Part shown: one piece after another, positions 1 through 27,593 of the stretch
How the letters are laid out: every line of letters starts with the position of its first letter
How positions within the stretch are numbered: position 1 is the stretch's first letter
Assembly (NCBI GenBank): GCA_018398765.1
Contig: JAHBMJ010000179.1
Coordinates: forward strand, 100,070 to 134,647
Direction of reading: 5' to 3'
Source: Chromera velia
Taxonomy: Eukaryota > Sar > Chromeraceae
DNA length: 34,578 nt
The notes under the pieces: model-generated
Database searches by the model: none
Seen by the model: the letters and a program-made list of their open reading frames with translations, nothing else
What the model was told of the DNA's origin: nothing
Program-made: the position numbers and the translations under genes

Positions 1-676
1 CCATTTTTGCAGGGAAGGCGACGGGCTGACGAATGCGCGTAGTGTGCGGGAGAAAGTTCTGCCTGGGAGGGAAGGTTTGGAACGGGGAGATGTCTTCTCT
101 GCAGAAGGCAGTGAGGGACCATGGAGAGGTCGTCAGGAGGAGCTCCTCGATCTGGCTAGAGGGATCAGGGAGCTAGGAGCTGTGGGGCGATGCACTCCGC
201 ATGACAAGTCAGTGAGTGAGGTGATTCGGATCAGCCCGGCTGGCGAAGGACAACAACGTCTTCGGCGTTCAACCGATCGCTCTGTTTCCTTCCCTGATCG
301 TTCCTTTCTTTCCTTCTTTCGGTCTTCCTTTCTTCTTTCCTTCTGTTCGTTCATTCAGGGACGAGCAGGGACGGCCGATGCCGAGGGGAGAGCTCTGTCT
401 CCGTGGTCCCTCCGTTTTCTCCGGGTACTTCCAGAACGAGGAGAAGATGAATTAAGGAAGCATTCGACAGCGACGGCTGGTTCCACACGGGGGATGTCGT
501 CAAGGTGTGTGCGTGTGTGTCTGTGAGAGAAAGAGAGAGCTGCATGGCTTCATCTGGTGACCTGCATTCACTCAGTCATAAACATACCATTTCGGTCTGG
601 GGATAGCTAGGCACTTTCAGAACAGTGGCAGCGCGGTCGAGTGCACATATTGGCTTCTCTGCTCGGTTTCTCTCTC

Positions 677-743
<67 letters not shown>

Positions 744-1758
744 CTACTCATCTGTTTGTTCGTGCTTGTGTGTCTGCGTATGTATGTCTGAGTGAGTAAT
801 CTGTGTGTGCACTTCTCTGATCATCGATCGCCCTCCTCCCCCGATCCCTCGCTCCCTCCCTCCCTCCCTCTGCAGGTTCCCTCACCCGAACGGCGCCTTC
901 CAGATCATCGACAGGGCGATTGAAGAACATCTTCAAGCTCGCACACGGAGAGTACATCGCCCCGGAGAAGACCGAAATCGTGTACGTGCAGGCCTCCAGC
1001 GTTGCACAGGCCTTCGTGTACGGCACCTCCACAGAGAGATTTCTTGCCGCGGTCGTTGTGCCTTCGGATGAGGGCGTGAGGGTCAGTCAGTCAGTCAATG
1101 AGTCAGAGAGAGGGGGAGACAGGCAAAGAGAAACTTTGCGCTATCAATTAGCGGGAGATGTTGAATGTCATTTTTTCCTTCCACATAGGCAGGCCCGCCC
1201 CTGACTCAGTCAGATCCGCCTTCGTGACCATAGCCAGTTTTTGGAATTGTATTGCTGCCCCTGTATTTTTTGCTGTCGACTGAGGAAACGTGTGTACAGG
1301 AATTTGTGCACATGCTTCAGGGCTGTTGGGTCCCTCTCTGCACCTTCGCAAACTGCTCGATTTGCGTGCGCCTTTTCTTTTGCTGGTGATGGCCAACTTT
1401 TGCCACAAGTCTGTGTGTTATTCGTAGGAGATATATTGTTATATTTCCCTTCCTCTGACTCGATCGATGGATCAGGCTTTCGCTGAGAAGACAGGCAAGC
1501 CGCGTGACATGAATTAAGGCTTTGTGCGCGGACGATCGAGGAGTTCAAGGAGGAGGGGGTAGAGGAGATGAACGCGGCCGGGAAGGCAAACAAGCTGAAT
1601 GGAATGGAATGGAATTCGGGAAGGAGGTCACGCTCTGGCCCGAGCCCTTCACTGTGGAGAAAGATCTGTTGACCCCCTCTTTCAAGCTGAAGAGGCTCCA
1701 GGCAAACACGGTCTTCCAGAAGCAAATTGCGGAAATGTACGCAAAACTGAACAAGTGA
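1..1758 (+). CDS. Long-chain acyl-CoA synthetase, C-terminal exons (5' end outside window; frame interrupted)
   Basis: Activates long-chain fatty acids to acyl-CoA with ATP. Three exons are supported: 359-506, 876-1075 and 1476-1758 (TGA stop). Exon 359-506 carries [20 protein letters not shown] and [10 protein letters not shown], the AMP-binding signature with the ribose-binding Asp. Exon 876-1075 carries [11 protein letters not shown], then [16 protein letters not shown], the hinge region. Exon 1476-1758 carries [13 protein letters not shown] and [10 protein letters not shown], the conserved ACSL C-terminus. Introns are 507-875 and 1076-1475. A possible earlier exon begins at 13 (EGDGLT, compare the family's GYGLTE), but 13-358 is not resolved. 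Oddity: the motifs are not in one frame. Extra bases sit at 450-453 (AATT), 919-922 (ATTG), 1512-1515 (AATT), 1534-1537 (GATC) and 1604-1608 (a GGAAT repeat unit). Removing them restores the family alignment. It may be a young pseudogene, an assembly error or a recoded gene. The family assignment is firm; functionality is open. Confidence 0.8.
670..741. repeat. (CT)n then (GT)n microsatellite in ACSL intron
   Basis: About 43 bases of CT dinucleotides run straight into about 29 bases of TG dinucleotides. It lies inside the intron upstream of the acceptor at 875, which is itself preceded by repeated CCCT units. It probably supplies a polypyrimidine tract as well as being a simple repeat. Confidence 0.9.
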
Positions 1759-2540: not shown

Positions 2541-2998
2541 TTATAGTGTCATGTCCCCTCGCGTATGATCAAAGATGAGGTTCATGTCCTGACGGAGTGT
2601 AAGAACACAGAAAAGGAACGGAACAGGCTGAAAGAACTGTACGAAATTGCGAAGCAGAGAGCGCTCATTGACATAAGAATACAGATTGCACAACGCGTTG
2701 CAGGTGTAACCGAGAGGGGCACTTCTGATAATGAGAAGAAAATGAAGGATATGGTGTTGCTGTTGTGCACAATCCTGCCTAAAAGCGGTTCCAAAGCTAT
2801 AGCCGACTGTTTCAAGAAGATCCATTCTGTCGATAAGGCAAGTTGAGGCGAATCAATCTGACTGGCATGCAGGCTTTGATCCTCACCCCCCCCCCCCTAT
2901 GAATGTGTGCTCTGGGTTGTCCTTAAAGCCTTGTTAGTGGCTTGGGATTTGGCGTCGCTAAATCTAAGATTTAACCCTCAATCATCATCATCATCAGC
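2541..2998 (+). mobile_element. Non-LTR retrotransposon (LINE), 5'-truncated 3' end
   Basis: An open frame from about 2541 to a TGA at 2844-2846 encodes a stretch with DEVHVLTECKNTEKERNRLK. This resembles the short Cys/His segment with 'DE.H.L..C' found at the C-terminus of reverse-transcriptase proteins of LINE-type elements. About 150 bases of 3' untranslated sequence follow, ending in a (TCA)n tail at about 2980-2997, a 3' simple-repeat tail typical of some LINE clades. The RT and endonuclease domains are absent, so this is a 5'-truncated insertion. I could not identify target-site duplications. The clade cannot be assigned from so short a piece. The last ~100 residues have no internal break, which suggests a fairly recent insertion. 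Confidence 0.65.
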
Positions 2999-3800
2999 AC
3001 TTCACACTAATTATTTTTTATAATACTAGTGATAATCTAGGAAATATACCAGGAGATAAATGAGTTTCATGTAATAATTTACTAATAAATCGATATATAA
3101 TACTTTGATTGATTGATTGATTGATATGTTCCGCCCTAGGGCCTTCTCGCTATGTCTATCTGTCGACTTTAATCGTTCTATGTCATGCCAGTCTAGATGT
3201 CAGTGATCGAATGTCATAAGCTTGGTCCAACTTAAGTCATTAGAGATCACCTCATCAAGCTTTACACCCTCAGACATCGTCAGGATTTGGAATGATCACA
3301 TTGTGTACTGTCGGTATTATGCATGCAACTTACACTTATACAAACTTGCAGCACACCTACACATGTATGACATGCGGGCTGGCACTAGGCTTTTCGAAGA
3401 TGAAAGCCTTCTGTGTCCTGTTTCTTGCTCTCAGGCTGCATCTATACGCGTCGGAAGCGAAGGCAGGAGACCGCCAGGTCCACCAACACGACGTTCGTGG
3501 ATGGAAATCGATCGATCGGTCTCTCAAACCCCTCTTTCTCTGTGTCGCTTTGCCAGTGCCTCTCTTCTGAAAGTCATTGTTAGACTAGTTGCTTGCACAG
3601 TTTGCATCGAGTCATCGCCATCTCCCTACCGCTCACCATCGAATGGACTCTGCACACTCTCTCGGCCAGGCTCCCTCGACTTTTTTGCCTTGGTTGTTTT
3701 TGGATCTGTCTTCTGCTGAGGGGCTCACATGACGAATCAATGAAGTCTTTCTGCACAAGCTACCAGTCTCCGACGAAGGCAACAAAATAAAGAAAGACGC
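2999..3800. other. Intergenic, AT-rich then mixed; no gene seen
   Basis: About 3000-3105 is AT-rich and ends in a (TTGA)n microsatellite at 3106-3125. An open frame at 3222-3719 has no recognisable motif and a composition like translated spacer, so I do not call it a gene. A perfect TGCATGCA lies at 3320-3327. Confidence 0.55.
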
Positions 3801-6800
3801 AAGCAAACCGATCCAACCTTATTGAGGTGCATTGAAAGGGAACAAGAGACAGATGAGCCGCCTGCCCGCTCTTGCTACAACAACTGGATTGTTCGTATCG
3901 GGTGTGTGGTGTGAGTCAGCGGTCGATTGAAGTTGTACATTAGTGAGGGACGTAGGAGTGGAAATTAAGGGAGCTCGGATTTGTGTGTGAGTTTTCAGTG
4001 CCCTCACCTTCAAATAGCGAAAGGAGAAAAAAGGCAAACCGACAGATGCTGGAAGAAAGGAATGAAGGAAGACGAAGGAAAGGATGTGGGTCAAGCAGCC
4101 CGTCAGCACAGCACATCACATCACGCCACAGCGACAAAATGAAGAGAAGAGAAGAGAAGAAAACAGGCATGCATACGAAGAAACATGCAGAGAGTGAAGA
4201 GAGAGTCGACCGAAAGGAGCCCTCCCCCCCGGCGCTTCGCTTCTCGGCCGGGTATCTCCATCCGTTTCGTCCGTCCCTTCCTGTCTGAACTAACTATACA
4301 AAACCACAGCTGCTGACAAAAACCACGCAAGCTCTGGAGTACCTCTGTGTCCCTAAGGTCGGATTTCAGAGGATCGAGTGGTGTAGAAAGGGAGAAGTCA
4401 CTGGATGCGAGCTCAGGGAGGTAACTCTTTCTTTCAGGCTTTCTCTCTTTCTCTTCTTCTCGATTGTCACAAACGAATCCACGAATAGAATGGAATGGTT
4501 AGAGGAAGGAAGCATGCATTCTCTTCCTCCCTCCCTCCCTGCCTCAATCTCCACGCTGGCCTGACTTCTCTTCGGTTCTCTCAGTTCTTTTTTTCTTCTT
4601 TCGTTCTTTTGATGATCTCTTTCTAGGACTGAACAGACAAAGAGAAGAAAAGGAGCGCGTGCGCTTCAACAGAGTGAAATTTTTCTTTCGTTGGTGGATC
4701 GTCCTTCCTCTCGCCCCTTTTCTGTCTGCTCTTCCCTGTTTAGTCCCTCGAAGGAATCTTCATTCCGATACCCCTCCTCGAATTTCCTCATGGCTCGCTA
4801 TCGTCGAAATAAATGGAGGATTGAGTGACCATTTTGAATTTGCTTCTAAGAGAAAGGCAACATCCACCCCTGCCTGCCTCCTACACAAAGGGACCTCACT
4901 TTGAATTTTTCTAAAATCACGGATGAAAAAACAGACATGCAGAAACGTCTCACTGGTCGTCTCGTTCCTCGGAGTCTGCCGCCTTTTCTTGCTTTCTCCG
5001 CCCCACTTGCACGTCTTTATTGAACTTTCTCCCCCTCCTTCTGCAAAACCTGCATGCCACAGTCCTCTGCATTCTTTTCCTTCCACTTTCTGCTTTTCTG
5101 TTTCTCGATTTCGCCAAAGACAAACTCCCTGGCTGAAATGAATTTTTGCTTCCGTCCTCACTACCGGCAGGGCAGCGTTCTCTCCAGACAGACGCAGAGA
5201 CAAAGCGAGAGACAGGCAGAGACAACCATTTCACTCAAACCACCTGAAAGCATGCCTGCCTGCCTGCCTATCAAAGTCATGAAAGACAAAAGGATGACGA
5301 ACGGAAACAAAAATCGCACACACGATGTGCGAAAGAGGAGTACAGAAAGAAGATAAGAAGAGAGGAAGAGAGTTGGGAACGCAGGGACACACACAAAGTT
5401 CGCATGCCGCATCTATCTATCCACCCTGACGCACACATGCGTGCATGGCCCTTCGCTTCCCTTCCGCTCTTTCTTCCTTCCTTCCTGCAGTGGATCGAAT
5501 TGATTTCCTTCCGTCTGACATTGCCATTTTATTCATTCCTTCTTTCATTCGTGCATTCACTTGCCTGCATGCAAGACAAGCAAAACGAGCTGCCAGGAGA
5601 GACCAATACACCCTCTCTCCCTCCTCTCTCTCCACCGCCATACAATCTCACACCCACCGTCCTTTTCAAAGAACAATCCCTCGACTTGAATCAACCAACT
5701 CCTCCCCCCTCTTCCCTACCCAGTCCTCCCCTCTGCATGCCTGAAGATAGATGGACAGACAGAAAGCGAACAATCAAGGATCTGGGTGGGTGAAACAAAC
5801 ACACAAAATCACCAGCAGCAAGTCCATCAATGCCTTCTTTTGTGCCTTTCTTCCCCCTACCCTCTCCCTTCCCCTTCTTCCTTCATTCGCCCACCAGAGA
5901 GCGCAGTCGTGAATCGACCGGCTCGCTTAAAGAAAGAAAAAAGGAAAGGAGAGAGAACTACAACAAAGCGGATCGTCGTCTCCGATCCCAACGCGAAAGT
6001 GCCCACCCACCGCCGTTCCCTTCCCTTCCCTACCCTCTGTCAGTTGAATTATTCACAACAGGTTTGCTTCTCTCGGCCTTTATTGCAGGGAGGGAAAAAG
6101 AGAGGCAGGCAGGCAGAAAGAAAGAAAGAAAACATCTCAGAGCCAGCCTCCAGGTTTGGATCCCCTCGATTCATTTTTCGTCCATTACCGTCGAGGCGAG
6201 ACAGGACAACACTCCCTTCCTTCTTTTTACACGCGGTCTCTGTCTCATTCACAGTCTCATCTTCTTTTCGTCCCACAGTAGCACTTCCTTTCTTCCGTTC
6301 CCCCGCCCCGGGAGGCCTCTTGCCAGATTGCAAACAAAAAAATGCAAGCACACCCGAAGAGCACCCACACATGAACGAGAAGATCCATCGAAGGCGAGGG
6401 AAACCAACCGAAGCGAGACGTTCGCACTCACTTACTCACTATGGTCGTTTGGGAAGGATAGAAGGGGACCCTGCCAGGCATGCAGCCAGAAGGCGAAACC
6501 CGAAAAGAACCCTCGGCCCAGCACCCGGAGAGGGTGGCAGGGAACGGTAGAAGAATAAGGGGAGAGAGAAAGAGACAAATGAGTGTTTTCACAATCAATA
6601 CATGGACAGGCATGAAAACAAAAGCAGGAAGGCACTTTAAAGAACGAGGGGGGGGAGGGAGAAGCGAAGGAAGGAAAAACTGAATCAGTCAGTCAGTCTT
6701 CGACCTTCTGATCGGATAGGTCTCTCTCTCACCCTCCTTTTCCTTTCACTGTTGCTGAAGAGCGAGTGAGTCAGAGCACAAAAGACAACGTCTCCATCAG

Positions 6801-8032
6801 CCACGTCCCAGATGGAAACGGCCGCCTTCTCCGTCGCCCCTCACGCCTCATCTTTCTCTTCCTCCTCCCTGTTCGGTTCTCTCAACTCAAGTGGAAGGAA
6901 GGAAGGGCACTTTCGTTCTTTCGCTCTCTTATTTTCTTATGGGTTTGCATCTGTGGGTGCATAGGTATTCGATCAGACCGTCCCTCCGATAGACTCAGTC
7001 AGGTTCTACTTATGTTGGTGTTTGGTTTTTTCTTCATGTAGCCCCCCCCCTAATGATGGATGATCGAATGAATTTGATTGAGGATGGGGATTGTCGACTG
7101 TTTCTTCGATCGTTCTTTCCCCCTTCCGTTTGATGATGAAACCCCCTGACCGACTGACTGCCAAGACGAAAGAGAAGACGGGAAGGGAAGGGAAGAGAAG
7201 AGAAGGAATTTACTCACACTGTCGGAAGGAAGCAAAACACAATTCAGTCACGTCCAGTACCGAATCAACACACACAACTTCCTTATGCAAGGCCGATGGA
7301 TGGCTCGGCTCCTCCACGAACGAATGAACGAACAGTCACGTGCATGACGAAAGAAACGCATGCATGCACCGTTGGCAGAGAGAGAGAGAGGGAGAGAAGA
7401 GCCAGAAAGAAGGGATAGGGTGAGAGAGAGAAGGAAGAGCCAAAATTTCTGTTGCCAAGTACGCACATGCAGGGGGGAACAAAGAGAGGATGCCACTTTC
7501 GTCCTGGTCTCCTGATGGCCCGAGACGGACAGAGAGAAAAGAGAAGGCCGGCCAGAGAGACAGTCTTCCTTCCTTCTAGCCCTCTCGCTGTTTATTAGTC
7601 ATGTCAGACGGCACTCACTCTCTCATCCGTCAGCTCTTGTTCGTTCGATTCGTTTTGCTGAGGGACGGCAAGACAGAGTGGTAGAGAGAAAAAGAAAACC
7701 ATCGTCCTTCTCCCTCCGTCTTGAAAGCTCCTTATTCGTTATTCATCTTCCGAGCCCCGTTCAGCTTCTCTCCCCAAGCGCACAGGCAGGACAGACACTC
7801 GTCCCTTCCATTCAGGAAAGAGAAAAGAGAAAGGAGAGGAAAGGGTGGACACACACGCCTCAACGTTTCTTCATTTCGTTGGAAGAACATTCATTCGCGC
7901 ACTCACAGACTCTCACGGTCACGAACACATTCATGAAGTCACTCGTGAGTGCACAGAGCACCAACGAACCAAACACCCTCCCGCCCCATTTCCTACACCC
8001 CCCCAATGCACTCATGCCTTCTGTCCGTCTCC
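3801..8032. other. Long purine/pyrimidine-biased spacer, no supportable gene
   Basis: Alternating blocks rich in GA or CT on the plus strand (GGAAG, CTTCC, AGAGAG runs). Stops are scarce in such sequence, so long frames appear by composition: two overlapping plus-strand frames of about 250 codons share about 5786-6558, and both read as Arg/Lys/Ser/Pro-rich low-complexity protein without domains. TGCATGCA occurs at 5566-5573 and 7361-7368. Part of the region below 8033 is probably the 3' untranslated region of the minus-strand gene, and the start may hold distal ACSL 3' sequence. I see no RNA gene. Confidence 0.5.
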
Positions 8033-11528: not shown

Positions 11529-14500
11529 ATGAGCACCATGTACGACCCACTCGGGTGGCAGTCCGACCACATGCCGCAGACAGCCCCCTTCTCTGACCAC
11601 TCCAGCAGCGAAACAGGAGGGAATGCACTCCCCTCCCAAAGCGATTCTTCAGTTCTACATGCTTCTTCTCTCAACCTTGATGAGGGGACGGGGGCAGCTG
11701 CAGTTTCCCTCTCTTTCAACTTCGACAGAGAAGAAGACAGCCAGGCCCTCGACCTCCATGCACATGCGACTGCGGGTGCATTCCCGTACTTCTCCCAAAA
11801 CGACGTCAGTGCACGTGTCGACCACCGTCACGACAGCTGCAGAAACCTCCACGCAGACTGCCATGCAGATTGCGAGGACGAAGTCAAGAGAACAGAAACC
11901 AAGGACACAGACGGAAACACAGAGCCTCTTACCTGGCAGTCTGTTCTTCTGGCTGCTGGTGCCTCCTCCTCCCCCTCCCGACCTCCTGCAGGGGGAGGGG
12001 GAGGGGATGCCGGGGCCTCCGTCGGAGAGGATCGGAGAGGTCTGGTGGGGTTGAAGCATGTCGGCAAATTGCCGCAGGTCAGTTGCGTGCATGCATCCAT
12101 GTCCATCTGCTACATGCGTATGCATACATGCGTGTATGCGGTGGAGAATTGTTCGTCGCCCGCGAAAATCTATTATCTGCACGACTTGCGAAAGTGAGAA
12201 AGCAGGCAGCCAAAAATGTGTGCGGAGAGCTTCCACCAGGAACGGAGTTGGATGGAAAGACGGACGCAATCGTTTGCATGGAGTGAAAGAAAAGAATCGT
12301 CCATCCATCCTTCCTTGCATGTAGGCAGAAAGACTCGATCAATAAGTGACTTCTTGGCTAGAAAGACTGCCGGTACAGTCCAAAGTAAAGCAGAGGGAGA
12401 AGAAGCGAAAGATGTATCATGTCAGATCTTCGTTTTCATAATAAAATCTGAGTATGTTCCCGCACGCTTTCATTCCTGCAGCCTTTGAAGACACGCGCGA
12501 TGCCCGTCTCCTTCTCGCCCATCATCGCGCCTTCCCCCCTCTTTTCTGGTTCCAGTCTTGTGTCTGGGTCTGTCCCCAACTCCAACGCGAACAACCCAAA
12601 CGTCTCCGTCTCCCCCTTCTCTCCGAAGGCCGCCTTCGGGGGCTTCTGCCCATCCGACCAGAGCAACAGGGCCGCGGGGCAAGAGACCGGAGTCGGAGGG
12701 AACTTCTCAGGCTCGGCCTACGACTTCCCGAACTCAGTCGCCGCCTCTGCTTCACCGCACAGGGGGGGCAGCTCTCCCGGATGCGCTCCGAACGACCTCC
12801 GGCTCTCTCTCGCATGCGAAATCTGCGGAGTGCCAACACCTGTCACCGAGACTGTGGCAGTGCGCGCGTGTGCACAGGGCCCCCGATGCGCCCGCAAACT
12901 TGTCAACGAACTCGAAACGTTGAGGAAGGAGCATGGCAGGGTGGGTAAGTGATCTTCCTCTCTCCCTGCCTCCCTCTTCGTCTCCCTTCTCTCTCTCTTG
13001 CTTGATCCTACCCGCTGATTGAGTGCGCACTTCCTTGCTTCGTTGGGGATTCTGTCGTGTAATCTATGTTGGAGGAAATGGCTCGATCAGGAAACAAGGG
13101 GACAAACTTCTGCATGTATTTGTGCATAGAGGGATCTGGGGACTGTCACACCCTTTATTGCTCTGGGGGCTTGGTATTCCGATCTCTTGGGTCATTTTCT
13201 TCTTCTGCTTCTTTGTTCAGCTCCAGTCACATCCCCTTGGAGTCGAAAATTGCGCATCAATCTCTTCTCCCGCATCTGTCGTGGGGGTCTCTCTTTTCTT
13301 TCTTCTTCTTGACAGATTCGGTTCAAAGAAGACTTAAAGGCAATAGAACAGCGTGGAGTACATGTTGCGCAAAAATCGTTGATTGATTCCTTCCTTCTTT
13401 CCTACTTTCCTACTTTCCCTCTCTCCCTCCTTCACTCATGTATTCATTTAATTCCTGATTCACTCATTCATTCATTTCTTCCCTACCTCGATCCCTGCCT
13501 GCAGCTCCAGAACAGGTACGCCACAGCCCTGGAGCAGGCTCTCAGGCTGCAAGAGACTCTCCAAAGGCAGGAGAGAGACATCGAGAGGGAACGCCAAAGA
13601 GCCGCACAGGCAGAAAAGACCCTCGAGAAGGAAAGGGAAAACTTCCTCCTGGCAGCCCAACAACAACAACAACAGCAGCAGAAAGAAAGGAAGAGGCTCA
13701 GAGGCACCTCCCGCACCTCCTCAGCCTCCTCTGATCCAGTAAGTGGGGGCAGTGCGGCTGACGGGGAGAAAGAGAACTCGGTCCCTCCAGGACCAGCAAG
13801 GGACAGCAGAGAGAGGGGGGAATCAAAAGAGAATAAGGACAGAGAGAGGGAGAGGGAGAGGGAGAGAGGAGAAGCACCCAGAGATGGAAACGGCAGGCCC
13901 CGGCATCCCATTGCTTCTTTCAGATTCCCCACAAAGCCCTCTGCCCCCACACCAACCACTGAAACCAAAGTAGAGTCGAACACAAACCCTCCTTCTGGAC
14001 CTGCCAAGGTGTCCCCTCCCTCTTCAGACACCAGCCAGGCAAACATTCAAGACACTGCCGAGCGCACTGTCTCTCCTGCCCCCACTGAGGCTTCAGCCTC
14101 TGCCCCCAGCACATCCCCAGCTTCTCAAGCCGACCAGACAACGGCGCCCCCTTCCCAGCAAGAGAACGTCGAGACCCCTCTCTGTGAGGAAACAACTGCA
14201 GAGACAGAGGAGACTGAAACCTCTCCAGCCTCCCACGACAAGGGATCGTCAAAAGAGAAATCAGCAGACTCAACAGAAAAGGACGGGAAGGACAAGGCAC
14301 TTCTCACACCCGACCCCAATGAAAATCCCTACGAGGCAACAGGGGCTGGCTACTTTTGCCAGGGGTGGATGACTCCCAAAGACCTCCTGCCTGACGCACG
14401 CAGATTCCGATCCTGCACCACTCCATGTGCAATGGGCGTGGGCAATCACCTGCGTTGCAAGTGGAGACACAACTGTTTCTACGCCCACTACTTCTTTGAG

Positions 14501-15232
14501 TTGCAGCACTACGAGGCATTCCGCACTCGAATGTGTGAGGCCTTCGTATCGACAGGGTCCTGTGTGTATGGGGACACCTGCGTGTTTGCACACTCGCAGA
14601 ACGGACAGAGGGACAGGGACAGAGACCGCGGAGAAAGAGGAGAGAAGGACCAACCCGAGAAGGAGAGGGGGCAGTTTGGTCTCCACGCTGCTGTGGAGAG
14701 GGAGAGAGAGAAGATGAGGGAAGAGTACCGAGAGAGGGACACCAGAGGGAACTCAAACACAAACACAACAAAAGGACCCTCCCGTCCTTCCGCAACCAGA
14801 CTCCAGCCTGTCCCCTTTACCTCTCCGTCTGCAACCAGCAACAGCAACAGAGGCGACAGGTACCAAGAGAAAGAGAGGGAAAGTCAGAGAGACAAGGAAA
14901 GAGACCGTGAGGTGATTGGTAATGTGAGGGGAGGGGGGGCTGTGCGTCCCAGAGGAGCCGCCCGTTTCGGGTCCTCTACCGACCCCGCTTCTTCTCTTTC
15001 CGGTGACTCTTCCTTTGTCTCACGCACCCATCTTCAGCCCAGACGCCAGGAGGGTTCCTCATCCCAAGAGAAGAGCGGAGGAGGCAAGCAAACCACAGGG
15101 GGGGCAGGGCAGGCAGACACAGAAGCAGCCCACGAGAAGACCTCTTCTTCCGCCACCGGACAGGAGAAGGGGACATCACGTCGGAGTCCCCCTGTGGATG
15201 TGACGGATGCTTCTCAGTTTCCGTCGCTGTGA
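11529..15232 (+). CDS. Tandem CCCH zinc-finger protein, 911 aa, three exons
   Basis: Likely an RNA-binding regulator of mRNA fate, by analogy with tandem CCCH proteins. Exons: 11529-12077 (183 codons), 12482-12940 (153) and 13505-15232 (575 plus TGA); both introns are phase 0. The second donor is GTGGGT at 12941; the nearby GTAAGT would break the frame. Finger 1 (about residues 642-663) is C-x9-C-x5-C-x3-H, ending CKWRHNCFYAH. Finger 2 (about 680-702) is C-x8-C-x5-C-x3-H, with MCEAFVSTGSCVYGDTC. Exon 2 ends with a possible extra metal site (CEIC ... CAQGPRC, about residue 294-318), which runs into a coiled coil that continues across the splice junction (LETLRKEHGR then LQNRYATALEQ), confirming the join. 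The rest is low complexity: polyQ, Arg/Glu repeats and Ser/Thr/Pro-rich linkers. The start ATG at 11529 is the first of two close in-frame ATGs (M-S-T-M). Family call is firm; RNA targets are unknown. Confidence 0.88.
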
Positions 15233-18580: not shown

Positions 18581-19094
18581 AACTGTATGATTAAAATTTA
18601 CAAATGATTTTTCTGTTTATATGCTGAAACACTTAAATCAATCTAGGAATCAATTGACCGTTATCCAAGTCGCCACTAGAGTCGCTATTATTTCAAATTT
18701 ATATATCATCATCATATATAATGATATAACTTGAATATAGAAGTTGAAAGATAAACTATATAATATTCTTTCCTAGATACTTTCAAACTGTAAGGAGTCT
18801 GAGAATGAACTTGAAACGTGTTATAATACCCCTTAAGCTAGCTCCTATTATATTAAAGGTTTTCAAGCAAATTTCATCATAAATATCATCAGCATCATGT
18901 CATCATGATACGCCATCGATCGCTATCGGCATATATATAGCCACTGGCCTAATTTTATAAGTTTTTAGCGCTTAAGTCGGTTTGACGGCAATATATGAAG
19001 CAGTTTCGTTTCTATAACAGTGTTTCAATTATCTATAGCATAATTATTAGCATTTTATTCAAATTACTCTGAATAATCTCTAACAACAGGTAAT

Positions 19095-19135
<41 letters not shown>

Positions 19136-19330
19136 TATATATATTTACTAGTATATTTAGGGTCAATTTTAAGTACATAGATCTAGAGGTTGATTCAGTT
19201 ACTAGTTCAGTCATCATTATTAATCTCCATTACTTGTAGTGGTAGTATGAGCCTGAGCTAGCTATAGCTAGAGCTGTAGTGGCTAGTATAGTCTGTATAA
19301 TAATTAATCATGCAACGCATTCAGTAGCGC
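18581..19330. other. AT-rich intergenic block
   Basis: Composition changes sharply from mixed to AT-rich, with TA runs at about 19102-19129 and 19131-19144 and many CTAG/AGCT words (about 19255-19275). No open frame with protein character. It lies beyond the 3' end of the lipase gene and mirrors the AT-rich block beyond the 3' end of the GTPase gene. Confidence 0.7.
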
Positions 19331-19636
19331 ACTCATGATTTCATATATGAAGCAGTATGCATCCCTAGATGCATTCCTAAAGCGATACCCTCTTCTTCAC
19401 TTCTTCAAGTTCAAGTTATTATATGCAATTGCAAAGTTCGTCAGTAAAACAAGCGATTTTGACCCAGACAATGCATATACGAAAAAAAGACTTCCAAATA
19501 GTTTTGAGCACAATTTTGAAACGACCTGGCTGTGCCGCGTCCTATATGTAAGGTCACGATTGCAAGCCACATGCATCCAGTCGAGCACCGTAGCATGGAA
19601 AGTATGTATACACAGAAGAACATGACTTCAGGGGAA
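19331..19636. other. Lipase gene 3' flank, no gene called
   Basis: A plus-strand frame of 96 codons (19335-19625, opening MISYMKQYASLDAF) lies antisense to the probable lipase 3' untranslated region. It has no recognisable motif; it could be a small gene or chance. Confidence 0.35.
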
Positions 19637-22039: not shown

Positions 22040-24685
22040 ATGGCTTTGACAGACCACCAAGTGTTGCAGTATTTGCTGGCGTCGTACGAGCCAAGGCCGG
22101 ACGCCTGTCGCAAAGGTGTGGTCACGTGGGTTGGTAACACTGGCGCTGGGAAGAGCACGGGTGTTGCTGTACAGACCGGTGCGACTTTTCGCAGAGACTC
22201 CGAGGGACGGCTCGTCCTTCATTCCAATGTGAGGACGCCTCGTACGTCCCAGTGCCTGGAGTCTCAGACCCTCCATCCAGCCACTTTCCCCGACTACAAG
22301 GACCCCCAATTCGTGCATGTTGATACAGGTGGATACTTCGATACTCGCGGCCCCCTCTACGCGACGTGGACAGCGCAATCTGTCGCGGGGGTTGTAGCTT
22401 CTTCGAAGGTGTTGCAGTGTGTTGTTGCAACAGTCTCCTACACCAACTGCTTTCCCTCTAGTCGAGCTCCTCCTGCCGTTATTCACTCCTGGGCTGACTT
22501 TGCGGCACAGATGCAGACGACTTTTCCCTCCCATCTGGTGTCTTCTGACTCCATGATCTACTTCGTGTCGAAGGCTTTCGACATGGACATGATGGCTACT
22601 GTCAGCCGAGAGCGGCTGAACAAGGACATCGATGACTACATCGCGTTCGCCAAGAAGAGCATCTCGGAATGCGGGGCCCGACTTCGACAGACGCATCCCA
22701 AGCAGGCTGCTGCTGTGCGTAGTGCTTTGGGTGAAATCCGTGGGGCCCTCACGGATGTCGTTGCAATTGGGGGGCAGCAGGATGAGGACGAGGACCTGGA
22801 CAACCATATCAAGAACGCGCTCACTGGGGTTCATCTTCAGAACGTGCCGCGCGACAACGAGGACATGGCCATGCTCCACAAAATCCAGGGTGGGGTGCGG
22901 GAGATCATCAGATTTCGCGAGTGCCTCATGAAAGGACGTGTGGTTCTCAGCGACCCGTCCACGTTCCTCGTCCCGGAGGGTTGCAAGAAGCAAAGGGAGA
23001 AGGTTGGCCACCTGGTCGCGCGCTCCATGCCTCTGAACGGACCTCGCCTGACTGCGGCTGTTTCCCAGGGGCATGGGGTCGAGTTTGCCGATCTTCTGGT
23101 GCTAGCAGCACAACAGTACACTGAGCCCCTGAAGGATTTGTCCAACGTTGCTGCTGAGGTGAAAACAGAGATCGAGAACAAAGAGACCCTCCTCAGAAGG
23201 CTGGAGGCAGACTGGAGGGGCGTGAAGGAAGAGAGACTGAAAGCGCTGAGAGAGGAGTTTAAGCAAGCCGATGCTGACATGATCAGGATCGAGAAACGAA
23301 TTGAACACCTCAGGTCAGCTGAGAACGAGTCGGTCGATCTTTTTTTTTTTCGGTTATTTCTTCCACAGTTGAAGCCTCCTTGGATGCTCTTCAAAGTTCT
23401 GACTTTCCCGATGGACCTTCTGTGTTCTCTCAGTGACCTCTGTGCACTTTATTTTGCTACCTTCTCTGCTGAATTTCTCTGCGCCCCCCCTCTGCCTTCG
23501 TGCAGAACTTCCGAAAGGCATGTGGTCATCACAGAGGAACAGATTCACAAGCTCAACACTGGATGGCAGTGGTTTTGGGGTGTTCCTGTCACGCACTCGG
23601 CCACAAGCGGGAGAGACATTCCGATCTTTACCTACCGGTACGAGCAAGAGGGTGGCGACGTTGTCAGCGCCGAGCACACGTATGAGAGAGACTACCGGAA
23701 GTTGACTGTCGATGTGTCGGCCAAGTGGGAGATCAAGGGAACGGTGAAGGTGATTGCCCTCGAGAAGGACACCCCCGTCGCGAAGGAGACTGTGACACAT
23801 GAAGAGACAAAGCTGGAGCAGCAGAAAACACTGTGTCAGGACTTGAGAAGCCGCATTCAAACGCTTCGGGATGCAGGGAACAAGGAAGCAGTTGAGGGAA
23901 TTCTAGCTGCAGACTTCCAAATGAAGAAAGCTCGACTGGAAGGCCTGCGTGAGTGGCTTCAGGGGACAGAGGTTTTTCAACGAGAGACAACGTACGAATA
24001 CTGCCGGCAGAACACCCGAAGGGGACTGGCCTGTTTCCTGGCCACCATGAGAATGGGGGGTCTTCTCAAGTCCCTCGATCCTTCTGTCGCTGAGACCCTC
24101 TCAGAGTTCGAGCGAGTCTCCAGAGAAGCCAACGAAAGACTGACGAACCCGACGCTCCGAGGCCTCCTGGGAGATCTGTCTATCGAGGTTGTGAAGGTCG
24201 CTCAGGACGTGGAGAAGCCTACCAATCTCCCCCTGGTAGTTGCCGGTGAGGTTGCTGAGAAGCTCGAGGACCTTCGGTCTTTCGCACAGGATGTGTCAGT
24301 CTGGAGTGCGAAGAAGGGGTTCGAGGTGTTCATGGGGGTCGTCCACGTTGCGGCCGCCGCAATGGAGCAGCGGCCTCTTGAAACAGGCGTTTTCCTCCTC
24401 GCCCTGTCGTTGATGCTCCTGTTCAGGGTCGTGAACAGCTTCCAGGGCCTCGTGGTGACTCTTGCTTTTCCGTTGGGCTGCGTCTTGACGGTGAGGGCGA
24501 CGGTGGGTACAACGGGTCGACTTTCCGAGCAACTGCAGAATGTGCATCAGGCGCTCTCGAGGTTTTCATTTTGGCGACACTCAGAGACGATGGCGTTGGA
24601 GTTCATTGCAGCATTGAAGAGAATGAAATGGAGTGACGTGATGGAGGGAATTTTTGCTGGACTCTGCGCCAAAAGAAGTGAATGA
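22040..24685 (+). CDS. P-loop GTPase-like protein with coiled coils and C-terminal membrane hairpin
   Basis: Open for 881 codons from ATG 22040 to TGA 24683-24685; 817 aa if the optional intron 23314-23505 is removed. The N-terminus has Walker A GNTGAGKST (residues 32-40) and a G3-like DTGGYFDTRG (95-104), typical of TRAFAC-type GTPases in which DxxG is followed by FDTRG. No clear [NT]KxD is seen; FVSKAFDMD is the nearest candidate, so nucleotide specificity is uncertain. Charged coiled-coil segments lie at about 365-425 and, after a beta-rich part (KLNTGWQWFWG...), at about 590-640. Two hydrophobic segments at about 780-797 and 805-823 suggest a membrane hairpin near the C-terminus. Such a layout resembles membrane-remodelling or membrane-tethered GTPases, but no named family can be assigned. 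It shares its 5' region with a lipase. Confidence 0.8.
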   Translation: MALTDHQVLQYLLASYEPRPDACRKGVVTWVGNTGAGKSTGVAVQTGATFRRDSEGRLVLHSNVRTPRTSQCLESQTLHPATFPDYKDPQFVHVDTGGYFDTRGPLYATWTAQSVAGVVASSKVLQCVVATVSYTNCFPSSRAPPAVIHSWADFAAQMQTTFPSHLVSSDSMIYFVSKAFDMDMMATVSRERLNKDIDDYIAFAKKSISECGARLRQTHPKQAAAVRSALGEIRGALTDVVAIGGQQDEDEDLDNHIKNALTGVHLQNVPRDNEDMAMLHKIQGGVREIIRFRECLMKGRVVLSDPSTFLVPEGCKKQREKVGHLVARSMPLNGPRLTAAVSQGHGVEFADLLVLAAQQYTEPLKDLSNVAAEVKTEIENKETLLRRLEADWRGVKEERLKALREEFKQADADMIRIEKRIEHLRSAENESVDLFFFRLFLPQLKPPWMLFKVLTFPMDLLCSLSDLCALYFATFSAEFLCAPPLPSCRTSERHVVITEEQIHKLNTGWQWFWGVPVTHSATSGRDIPIFTYRYEQEGGDVVSAEHTYERDYRKLTVDVSAKWEIKGTVKVIALEKDTPVAKETVTHEETKLEQQKTLCQDLRSRIQTLRDAGNKEAVEGILAADFQMKKARLEGLREWLQGTEVFQRETTYEYCRQNTRRGLACFLATMRMGGLLKSLDPSVAETLSEFERVSREANERLTNPTLRGLLGDLSIEVVKVAQDVEKPTNLPLVVAGEVAEKLEDLRSFAQDVSVWSAKKGFEVFMGVVHVAAAAMEQRPLETGVFLLALSLMLLFRVVNSFQGLVVTLAFPLGCVLTVRATVGTTGRLSEQLQNVHQALSRFSFWRHSETMALEFIAALKRMKWSDVMEGIFAGLCAKRSE
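23314..23505 (+). other. Candidate in-frame intron (192 nt) of the GTPase gene
   Basis: Starts GTCAGC after CACCTCAG and ends TTCGTGCAG, matching the donor and acceptor style of the other genes here. It contains a polyT run and a C-rich tract. It is 64 codons long with no stop, so both spliced and retained forms stay in frame. Its translation (Phe/Leu/Pro-rich, Cys-rich) is unlike the charged coiled coil on both sides, which joins smoothly when it is removed (IEHLR then TSERHVV). Confidence 0.7.
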
Positions 24686-25200
24686 GCTCGATGATGATCA
24701 ATTGATCTGTGCGTGTGTTGAAAAACATTTTTCTTGCATGCTTTCTTTCTCTGGGAGACGTCGGTCTTTTTCGCCTTTCTTTCTTTGTTTTTGACTTTCG
24801 TGCTTCGACGCGTGCCCGTCCGTGTCGGCACGTCTCTGACTGACTTTGTCCGAAGCCAACGGAATTACTGCATCGACGGATGGAGAACGCTCATTGGATT
24901 GTACCACTCGTCAGCAGCAGTTCATGCCTCAGTTCGTGCCTGAACTCTTGTGCGTCTCTTCTTTACTGTAGGCGGCTGTTCGTTTTTCTTTGTTCTGGCT
25001 TGGAAAGAACTTTGGCCGTCTCCGTTCTCTCAGCCTTTGTCGCTTCCCGTCCCCTTCTTCTTATGGCTTCAATATGCATGGTCGGTGGTGGGTGGGAGGG
25101 TGTCGGTGGGTGGGGCACCATGGGTGTTCAGGGGGCGCCGGGGCGGCGTAAATGAGGGACTCAATGAATGTCAAATGTTCTCCAGTCGACTTCTTCTCTA
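24686..25200. other. GTPase gene 3' flank, no gene seen
   Basis: CT/TTTC-rich then G-rich (about 25080-25145) sequence without protein motifs. Probably 3' untranslated region and spacer. Confidence 0.5.
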
Positions 25201-25222
25201 GCTTCTTCTTTTGTTGCTTGAT

Positions 25223-25262
<40 letters not shown>

Positions 25263-25571
25263 ATCAGTGACTTAAAGTGTTTGAATTGGTTTGAGTCATG
25301 CTGTATGAATGTAGAAGAACAGTCTAAAAACTTCAAAGTTCAAACTGGAATTCAATCTAGAATTCAAATCATTTTAAAAGTCTGGGATAACTTTAATTTT
25401 TGTGTGAAAATTCCATCACACCGAACAATACTCTGAACTAGATACCGACCCTAGTACCAAACCCTAGCTAGACCGAACTACACCGAAGTTGACCGAACTT
25501 ACCATACAGTTAACTCTTTCATCATACTCATTCGATCAATCTGAAACAATTATTTGTGCTGTTTACTCATA

Positions 25572-25606
<35 letters not shown>

Positions 25607-26270
25607 TGTATATATATATATATATATATAATTTATGTCACAAATTCAAAAAAAAAAAACTCATAATTGGAATTCTGTCACACCATCACTATAGCACTAT
25701 AATTTAATTCTTAATTTAATTTGATCGGTGTAACTTGTTTGAAATCGAGTTTTAATCTAGGTTTTCATCGAATTTAAAAATTAGCTAACACATTAGAACC
25801 TAATACCCAGCCTGCAGCCCGGCCAATATATACTTAGCTAGGTCCTATAGGATCATACAACCTGAATAATAAAATTGCTGCCCCTGCAATTATTGACAAT
25901 CTAGTTGATCTAGTAGTTAATACTAGAGTTGATAATCTTGAAATATCCACCTATATTCAAGTTCTACCAGGAATCTAGCTATACCTTGATACTAGGCCAC
26001 CTATATAAAAAAAAAATAAAAAAGTAATTGCCTAAAATCGATTTTTGATTTTCTTTTTTTTTTTATTGATTTCCAATGTGAAAAATCTTGGCCCAGTTTA
26101 GATCTCCCACTTAGGAAAGGCTTTAGCTCATATAGTTTAGCTTAGGATCTAGCTTCTACTTAGCGACTACTTTGAGGATCTGAAAGTCACTCTTGGTTTG
26201 AAGAAGTCTAGGAGGAAGTTTGCATCCATCCGGTACGGTTCTGTTTCCCCTTTTCAATAACTACGGCATG
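25201..26270. other. AT-rich intergenic block
   Basis: Begins with (ATTG)n at about 25229-25263. TA runs lie at about 25575-25631, and an A-run/T-run fold-back at about 26005-26070. Frequent TAGCTAG/CTAGAT words. No gene. It mirrors the block at 18581-19330 across the lipase/GTPase pair. Confidence 0.7.
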
Positions 26271-26521
26271 CCCGTTTTTTTCACTTACTGGCAGCAAAAA
26301 AGCGCTCACAAGATTTCTGAAAGCGAACCAACGATAAAAGGGGAACAGAATGAGAATCACCAATCTGATTGAGGACTTTACTGATGTGGAGATCGAAAAG
26401 AAAGATAAGAATTAAGAAAAATAATATAAAGAGTAAGTGAACAGTGGTCGATTCCTCTGATAAAGAGGAGGAGGAGGACGTTATTTGGCTAGCTCCTCTT
26501 CTCAAAAGAACTGCGGCCCAG

Positions 26522-26950
26522 GGCCTCTCCGTCCCTCAGCAGCCTGCAGTAAATTAAGAAGTGAAAGAAAGAGAAAAAGAAGTGAGAAAAGGAGGAAAAG
26601 GAGGAGAGGGGAGAAAGAGGCTTCTTTTCCTGCCTAACTTCAAGTGGCTTCTTTTTCTTCTCTTTCCTGTTCGTTGTTTCAAGTCTGTTTTAACGGTTAC
26701 TTGCAGGTGCCACTGGGAGGAAGGAAGAGTCTCCGTCCTTCAGCAGCCTGCAGTCAAGAAGTCGGGAAAAAAAAAAAAAAATTAAGAAAGAAAGGGAAAG
26801 GGGGAGAGGGGAGAAAGAGGAGAGAAAGGGATGATTTATTATAATTTGTTGATGTCCCTTTCACTTTCTTCTCTAAGTCTTTCCCCTTTGTTCTTTTATG
26901 TCTGTTATATGTCTGTCGTCTGTCTTTAACGTGCAGGTGGGGGGCGGTGG
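26522..26950 (+). repeat. Two diverged direct copies of a ~205-bp unit
   Basis: Copy 1 begins about 26522 and copy 2 about 26728. Shared landmarks in the same order: CTCCGTCC(C/T)TCAGCAGCC followed by TGCAGT (26526 and 26731), ATTAAGAA, the 18-mer GGAGAGGGGAGAAAGAGG (26603-26620 and 26803-26820), a CTTTTTC/CTTCTC-rich part, and TTAACG...TGCAGGTG near the end. It looks like an old tandem duplication of non-coding DNA. Confidence 0.7.
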
Positions 26951-27430
26951 GGGGATCGAGGTCGTCGAAACAAAAAAAAAGAAAATAAATGAACAAAAGA
27001 AAACTGTCTGCTGCTGTTGAGACCTGCTGAGCCTTTCCACCTCTACCTACTCCTCCCTGCCTGTCTTCTGTACTATCCCCCTCTGGCCTCTGCCTCTGCT
27101 CATGGCAAGCGAATGAAGAGACAACATGAGCATGAGCGTCCCCTCTCCGGGCCCTTATTGGGTGAATCGAACTGACGGAACTGGGGGGGGCATTTGATGT
27201 CGAGCCCTGTCTTCCTCTTTTTCTTCTGCTTCCTGTTGTCTTTGGGGAGAAGTGGGGGCCTCGTGACCTCGTCTAGGGCCTCGTGCTGCTTATGTTGCTG
27301 GGGGGACAGCGGTTCCGTCTCTGAAGGGCATACGCGGTTCGCGGGAGACCTGTGGAAGACTTGCTCAGACTTTTTGTTAGTCTAGGCACTAGGCCTAGCA
27401 CTAAGCTGACTTTGAGGACCTAGATGTGAA

Positions 27431-27490
27431 CATCAAAAAAAAAAAAAAAAAAACTAATTAGGTTTTTAGCTCAATTTTTTTTTTTTGATA
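27431..27490. repeat. A-run/T-run fold-back
   Basis: CATC followed by about 19 A, a ~22-base spacer, then about 13 T followed by GATA. The arms are reverse complements (ATC + A-run against T-run + GAT). A similar pair occurs at about 26005-26070. Confidence 0.6.
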
Positions 27491-27593
27491 TATGGGTAGC
27501 CTAGACTTTAATATTTACACTGTTACTAATTGCTAGACTAATTGTTACACAAAGGACCCAGATTTAGACCTAGATGCATATATAACTAAAACA

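Follow-up and report, generated by a model that had tools for sequence, protein, structure and literature searches.

Truncated duplicate pseudogenes are partial copies of a gene that carry frame breaks, and piggyBac-type excision of a transposon occurs at TTAA. In yeast and in plants, excision of Ac/Ds transposons leaves footprints that contain P nucleotides, and the Ac/Ds target duplication is 8 nt (PMC5873905). In yeast, foldback inversions range from 2 bp to ~150 bp, most of them being <14 bp, and their formation needs Pol δ and NHEJ (PMC11724301).

We compared these systems with a locus for long-chain acyl-CoA synthetase (ACSL) and with other small insertions in and around a 34,578-nt stretch of Chromera velia DNA (hereafter, the window; contig C178, positions 100070-134647), using a 178-Mb assembly of 4040 contigs as the survey set. 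The ACSL locus is also a partial copy with frame breaks, but its indels are gains, five of six being exactly +4, in which it differs from a truncated duplicate pseudogene. Like the hAT (Ac/Ds) footprints (PMC5873905), the insertions combine a target duplication with short palindromic additions, and some scars found here have an 8-nt duplication; the ACSL scars, however, are net +4 with just 2-3 nt duplicated, and their source element is putative. Very short inverted copies at the join are shared with the yeast foldback inversions (PMC11724301), whereas the inverted part here usually has a direct repeat on its flanks. In piggyBac-type excision, an element with identical 4-nt flanks could leave one of the two behind, which here would be CTAG, but in our case a separate 8-nt duplication outside the CTAG stays behind as well.

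The ACSL copy lies at the start of the window and was compared with two paralog loci, on contigs C3481 and C2489. Its features are as follows (the footprint model is defined further below).

359..504, + strand: exon A of the ACSL copy, 86% identical to C3481:72875-73022, with AG and GT on its flanks
450..453, + strand: 4-nt insertion 1, AATT, creating an in-frame TAA; a gap against C3481; fits the footprint model with either ATG or ACC preceding
876..882, + strand: exon B opens with a net +4, GTTCCCT replacing a 3-nt codon (GTG in C3481, ATC in C2489)
883..1081, + strand: rest of exon B, 86% identical to C3481:73297-73515
919..922, + strand: 4-nt insertion 2, ATTG (GA.TT.GA); a gap against C3481 and C2489; the odd-centred model fits
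1476..1758, + strand: exon C including the stop codon, 82% identical to C3481:73779-74051
1512..1515, + strand: 4-nt insertion 3, AATT, creating an in-frame TAA; a gap against C3481; the even-centred model fits
1534..1537, + strand: 4-nt insertion 4, GATC; a gap against C3481; the even-centred model fits
1601..1605, + strand: an added GGAAT unit (+5), a plain tandem, found with the exons compared side by side

Nucleotide identity to C3481 over the exons was 82-86%. Both paralogs carry a fuller ACSL gene, with BLAST blocks that span ~5.5 kb at C3481 and ~4.5 kb at C2489. Within C178:75000-103000, similarity to C3481 started at 100425 and covered the last three exons only, and seven peptides from upstream exons found no match in that range or in the 34.6-kb window (E 1e-3); C2489 was matched. 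Most of the AMP-binding part is therefore missing from the window copy. The locus is thus, within the searched range, a 5′-truncated ACSL copy that consists of the last three exons, and its frame is broken relative to the paralogs, as the pseudogene option of an earlier first-pass annotation had it. The same annotation called the gene otherwise pristine, which was too strong given the missing upstream exons and the residue changes: with C2489 as the outgroup, the window branch accounted for 12, including an I to T change in APEKIE, and the C3481 branch for 4. These extra amino-acid changes are suggestive of relaxed selection but not significant (synonymous/nonsynonymous changes 15/15 on the window branch and 12/7 on the C3481 branch, Fisher p = 0.40). 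Over 201 codons, Ks between the window copy and C3481 was 0.54 and Ka was 0.06 (Ka/Ks 0.11); the divergence was mostly built up under constraint, and decay, if any, is recent. The pieces of the window copy in the ancestral frame contain no stops, which is equally expected from a recent loss of function. With part of the coding sequence missing and the frame broken relative to its relatives, as is looked for in a pseudogene, we infer that the copy is probably non-functional and decaying.

The four 4-nt insertions lie where the first-pass annotation had placed them, each opening a 4-nt gap against C3481. In the same alignment C2489 also lacked insertion 2 (919), and insertion 1 (450) faced a gap divided into 3+1 nt, 4 nt net; the exon C of C2489, inspected by eye and as peptide, lacked the insertions at 1512 and 1534. 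Paralogs without the insertions, which the annotation had proposed to look for, thus exist in both C3481 and C2489, and it follows that the insertions were gained on the window copy. No deletions were found in the three exons relative to the paralogs. Events 1 and 3 are indeed one 11-mer, ATGAATTAAGG, which sits at 447 and 1509. Site 1 has ATG where both paralogs read ACC, yet the whole 11-mer is common to the two sites, and one site may have been copied to the other. In the assembly the 11-mer had 145 occurrences, versus 42 for the reversed control, and a comparison of 20 of these contexts revealed no common family. The 9-mer GAATTAAGG gave 2491 versus 2208 occurrences. The context RATYRARG, also proposed by the annotation, does fit the sites; this fit partly reflects a choice of placement, as every insertion could be shifted by a few bases, and as a preferred target the motif did not hold, the common trait being self-complementarity with the flanks. 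Two further candidates were rejected. Among the 20 of 145 ATGAATTAAGG contexts compared, the sole match was one of 26 nt, shared by two contexts and not located at the site, which speaks against a common target motif. Ligation artefacts at restriction sites leave doubled sites; for AATT and GATC no such doubling was seen, and an artefact of this kind would not account for the other inserts.

For the rate and form of small indels elsewhere, we used a duplicated stretch and several repeat families as yardsticks.

3166..4770, + strand: duplicated stretch, other copy at C178:87110-88724, 92% identical; indel yardstick
6335..8028, + strand: duplicated stretch, other copy at C178:88728-90462, 89% identical

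The segment between them, window 4771-6334, is missing from the other copy (C178:87110-90462). Indels of the duplicated stretch were unpolarised and the longer copy was taken as the holder of an insertion; 33 indels were present in 3249 aligned bases, the largest class being those of exactly 4 nt (13/33). The repeat families comprised F1a (window 25992-26287) and F1b (window 26974-27504) with 24 rows each, F2 with 21, F3 with 5, F4 with 21 and a LINE-like 3′ end with 39, reference included in all cases; as family copies are the best-scoring matches, the counts are biased against indels. F1-F4 yielded 84 distinct insertions, of which 5 were 4 nt long, and 56 distinct deletions, and the LINE-like repeat, whose copies are subject to the same bias, only 15 distinct indels in its 39 rows. 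A search with L016 returned short matches, nearly all of ~95 nt. The LINE-like 3′ end occupies window 2555-2999; among 2068 first-look candidates, at least 38 were near-identical copies of it at other loci (91-95%). By eye, its short frame resembles the tail of a reverse-transcriptase protein. By our own arithmetic, the chance of at least five of six indels being exactly +4 is ~4e-6 at the frequency of 4-nt events among insertions of the repeat families (5/84) and ~0.04 at the 4-nt indel rate of the duplicated stretch (13/33).

Many insertions in the repeat families consist of a direct repeat of flanking bases around an inverted middle. F2 contains AA.TT.AA, in the context GACGAATTAAGG, and CA.TG.CA; a single F1 site has both GA.TC.GA and GAA.TTC.GAA, and CTG.ACAG.TGT and AGTT.GAACT.AGTTC occur elsewhere in F1; the LINE-like repeat has AAG.CTT.AG. 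This form was captured by a footprint model with a duplication of 3-8 nt, trimming of at most 2 nt on either side, 1-6 P nucleotides added per side and an even or odd centre. Inserts of <4 or >16 nt and pure tandem inserts (8/70) were left out of the counts, as were the ACSL indels at 876-882 and 1601-1605, so that ACSL was represented by the four 4-nt sites. The model, which was shaped after the data had been seen, accounted for 26 of 62 non-tandem insertions and left 36 unexplained, compared with a mean of 2.9 and a maximum of 8 in 100 letter shuffles. By group, the fits were 4/12 in F1a, 6/13 in F1b, 4/7 in F2, 2/5 in the LINE-like repeat and 5/14 in the duplicated stretch, and in F4, which was fetched after the idea had formed, 1/7 with 0.2 expected. 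All four ACSL insertions fit, one of them odd-centred, in a post hoc comparison in which a random 4-mer is explained in 8-10% of cases. When random stretches of the F1-F4 majority sequences were taken as inserts, 55 of 2306 fit. Five of 15 non-tandem deletions also fit, and the fitting ones that were inspected all lie in poly-A/T tracts.

Among 38 insertions of 4-16 nt, direct-repeat letters summed to 137, versus ~32 after shuffling (maximum 51), and nine insertions were fully self-explained, versus 0.8 (maximum 4). The summed inverted match was barely raised, at 130 versus 117 for shuffled inserts (maximum 131) and 120 for inserts from other flanks. A looser inverted-copy test scored 14/29 versus 7.1 expected in the first families, about two-fold, with 2/5 versus 0.5 in F4, 4/12 versus 2.5 in the duplicated stretch and 3/3 versus 2.1 in ACSL; its support for self-complementarity is weak. 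Hexamers of period 4 with a palindromic unit stood at 1.21 over expectation in masked sequence, versus 1.07 for other period-4 hexamers. Taken as observed, the form with a direct repeat and an inverted middle is over-represented among insertions in the repeat families and in one duplicated stretch. The duplications end at 8-9 nt and cluster at 8, and three insertions of 12-13 nt had an odd-centred fit only at a duplication length of 8 when lengths of 2-12 were tried. The ACSL sites fit duplications of 2-6 nt and not 8.

We therefore favor, at a probability of about 0.55, the reading that the locus is a truncated, probably non-functional ACSL copy whose 4-nt insertions are imprecise, self-complementary repair scars, the breaks having come mostly from excision of cut-and-paste DNA transposons. 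In such a process, a few bases at the break would be duplicated directly, one or two more would come from copying an end in reverse complement (AA.TT.AA, CGA.T.CGA, GA.TT.GA), and hairpin-capped or staggered ends would be opened, filled and joined; transposon excision is the presumed source of most of these breaks. Footprints of excised elements, one of the options in the first-pass annotation, are the best match to the form of the insertions, in this case with no preferred RATYRARG target. At the ACSL scars the duplications that fit are 2-6 nt long and not 8, so these scars do not stem from a standard 8-bp hAT element or from the CTAG element described below. Counting against the reading, they differ from the CTAG type, no element was found residing in the ACSL copy, and the run of +4 events in ACSL exceeds the rate in the repeat families. 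If the reading is correct, an apparent oddity of recoding becomes a countable mutational signature, and +4 breaks in gene models of such genomes are not to be read at once as programmed frameshifts.

A second, sharper class of scar has CTAG between two copies of the same 8 nt (N8-CTAG-N8).

25992..27504, strand not assigned: F1 repeat, with ends CTAGG...CCTAG; in its copy L103 the CTAGs are enclosed by an exact 8-nt duplication
27525..27544, strand not assigned: exact N8-CTAG-N8 scar (actaattg) with CTAG at 27533, one of 18 scars in the window
2044, 3193, 18643, 18676, 18773, 19148, 19202, 19268, 19365: CTAG positions of N8-CTAG-N8 scars
25198, 25357, 25757, 25910, 25923, 26208, 27273, 27395: CTAG positions of further N8-CTAG-N8 scars

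With simple-repeat contexts removed, 18 of the 61 CTAGs in the window were flanked left and right by matching 8-nt sequences (one mismatch allowed); the next filler reached 6, and the scars cluster in two stretches, 18643-19365 (seven) and 25198-27533 (nine). In 217 kb of sampled sequence, a non-random set with simple-repeat contexts removed, the same was true of 53 of 341 scored CTAGs (at most one mismatch; next filler, 16). Exact distinct N8-CTAG-N8 numbered 18 versus 0.09 expected, the top combination among repeat lengths of 5-11 and filler lengths of 1-6. Matching at lag 12 was 0.41-0.43 at eight adjacent positions and 0.22-0.34 at the next twelve. The count and the lag-12 profile together indicate that about one CTAG in six is involved in the sampled sequence. 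A Markov control on seven pieces holding 38 scars produced none in nine runs and one in one run. Three pieces of C3481 (L010, L014, L018) had scars at 0 of 38 CTAGs, which shows that scar density is uneven. Two F1 majority forms read U8-CTAG-U8, each absent from one copy (held by 15/16 and 14/15 of the covering copies), an insertion in L148 also reads U8-CTAG-U8, and an F4 insertion in L177 is a similar scar with the filler GCTAG.

The F1 copy L103 consists of CAGATTAA, then CTAGG...CCTAG, then CAGATTAA again. It would represent the filled form; if its ends were joined at CTAG, N8-CTAG-N8 would remain, a net gain of 12 nt. When the flanking 8-nt duplication was compared in three F1 copies, it was exact in L103, near-matching in L104 and ambiguous in L106. 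The hAT dimerisation domain PF05699 had seven matches in the genome as a whole. We tentatively propose, at somewhat short of even odds, that a lineage of DNA transposons inserts with an 8-bp duplication and exits by joining its CTAG ends, leaving a frame-preserving 12-nt N8-CTAG-N8 scar; counted together with short hairpin-type scars such as those of the ACSL copy, transposon excision would then be a main source of small insertions in this genome. In a limited literature search we recognised no description of N8-CTAG-N8 scars. If they are what they seem, a large number of past excisions can be recorded in a genome, and a 12-nt scar, if the proposal is true, would make the passage of elements through coding DNA less harmful.

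Similar insertions could arise with no transposon at all, when ordinary double-strand breaks are repaired by fold-back or template switching: an end would fold back on itself or change strands, copy a short piece of reverse complement and then undergo end joining. The shape of the product would be the same, and for many insertions short duplications of 3-5 nt are as good a fit as 8; we nevertheless consider this source unlikely, because the duplications end at 8-9 nt with a cluster at 8, and the sharp length of 8 in the CTAG scars is also more transposase-like. Tetranucleotide slippage across the genome, or fill-in of 4-nt staggered breaks of the topoisomerase II type, with 4-bp tandem duplications mutating later, would explain why no indel length is commoner than 4 nt in the duplicated stretch (13/33), why period-4 runs of at least three units number 162 versus 2.2 expected in 115.6 kb, and why the +5 GGAAT in ACSL is a plain tandem. 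However, none of the four 4-nt ACSL insertions is an exact tandem duplication and the 4-nt class makes up only 5/84 of insertions in the repeat families, which renders this explanation quite improbable. Plain tandem slippage, tried separately, was rejected: it fits part of the duplicated stretch, where 6 of 20 insertions (4-16 nt) were pure tandems, but not one of the four ACSL sites. In the 115.6-kb sample, runs of period 3 numbered 123 versus 27.6 expected.

Both the ancestral-frame pieces free of stops and the Ka/Ks of 0.11 against C3481 would suit a working gene that uses programmed +1 frameshifting or excises tiny RNA segments, as the first-pass annotation had suggested. Such a gene would need the upstream exons, which were not found in the searched range, whereas the fuller paralogs lack the insertions and need no shift, the shift sites are not conserved and similar insertions are present in non-coding repeats; recoding is therefore scarcely credible. 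An error of sequencing or assembly, or a misjoined contig, is easier to imagine in a draft of 4040 contigs, and a misjoin could mimic the missing upstream exons, but insertions of the same form recur across many contigs and we regard this explanation as very improbable.

When ten open reading frames of the window were compared with Pfam, a CCCH zinc finger was the only named domain, in a frame of 617 aa at 13379-15232 on the + strand; a frame of 881 aa at 22040-24685 on the same strand had no Pfam match. Light-harvesting domains had 58 matches in the assembly. Four light-harvesting gene copies (L038, L039, L040 and L044) were 96-99% alike over ~480-650 nt, and the available flanks of L038, L039 and L040 did not match each other.
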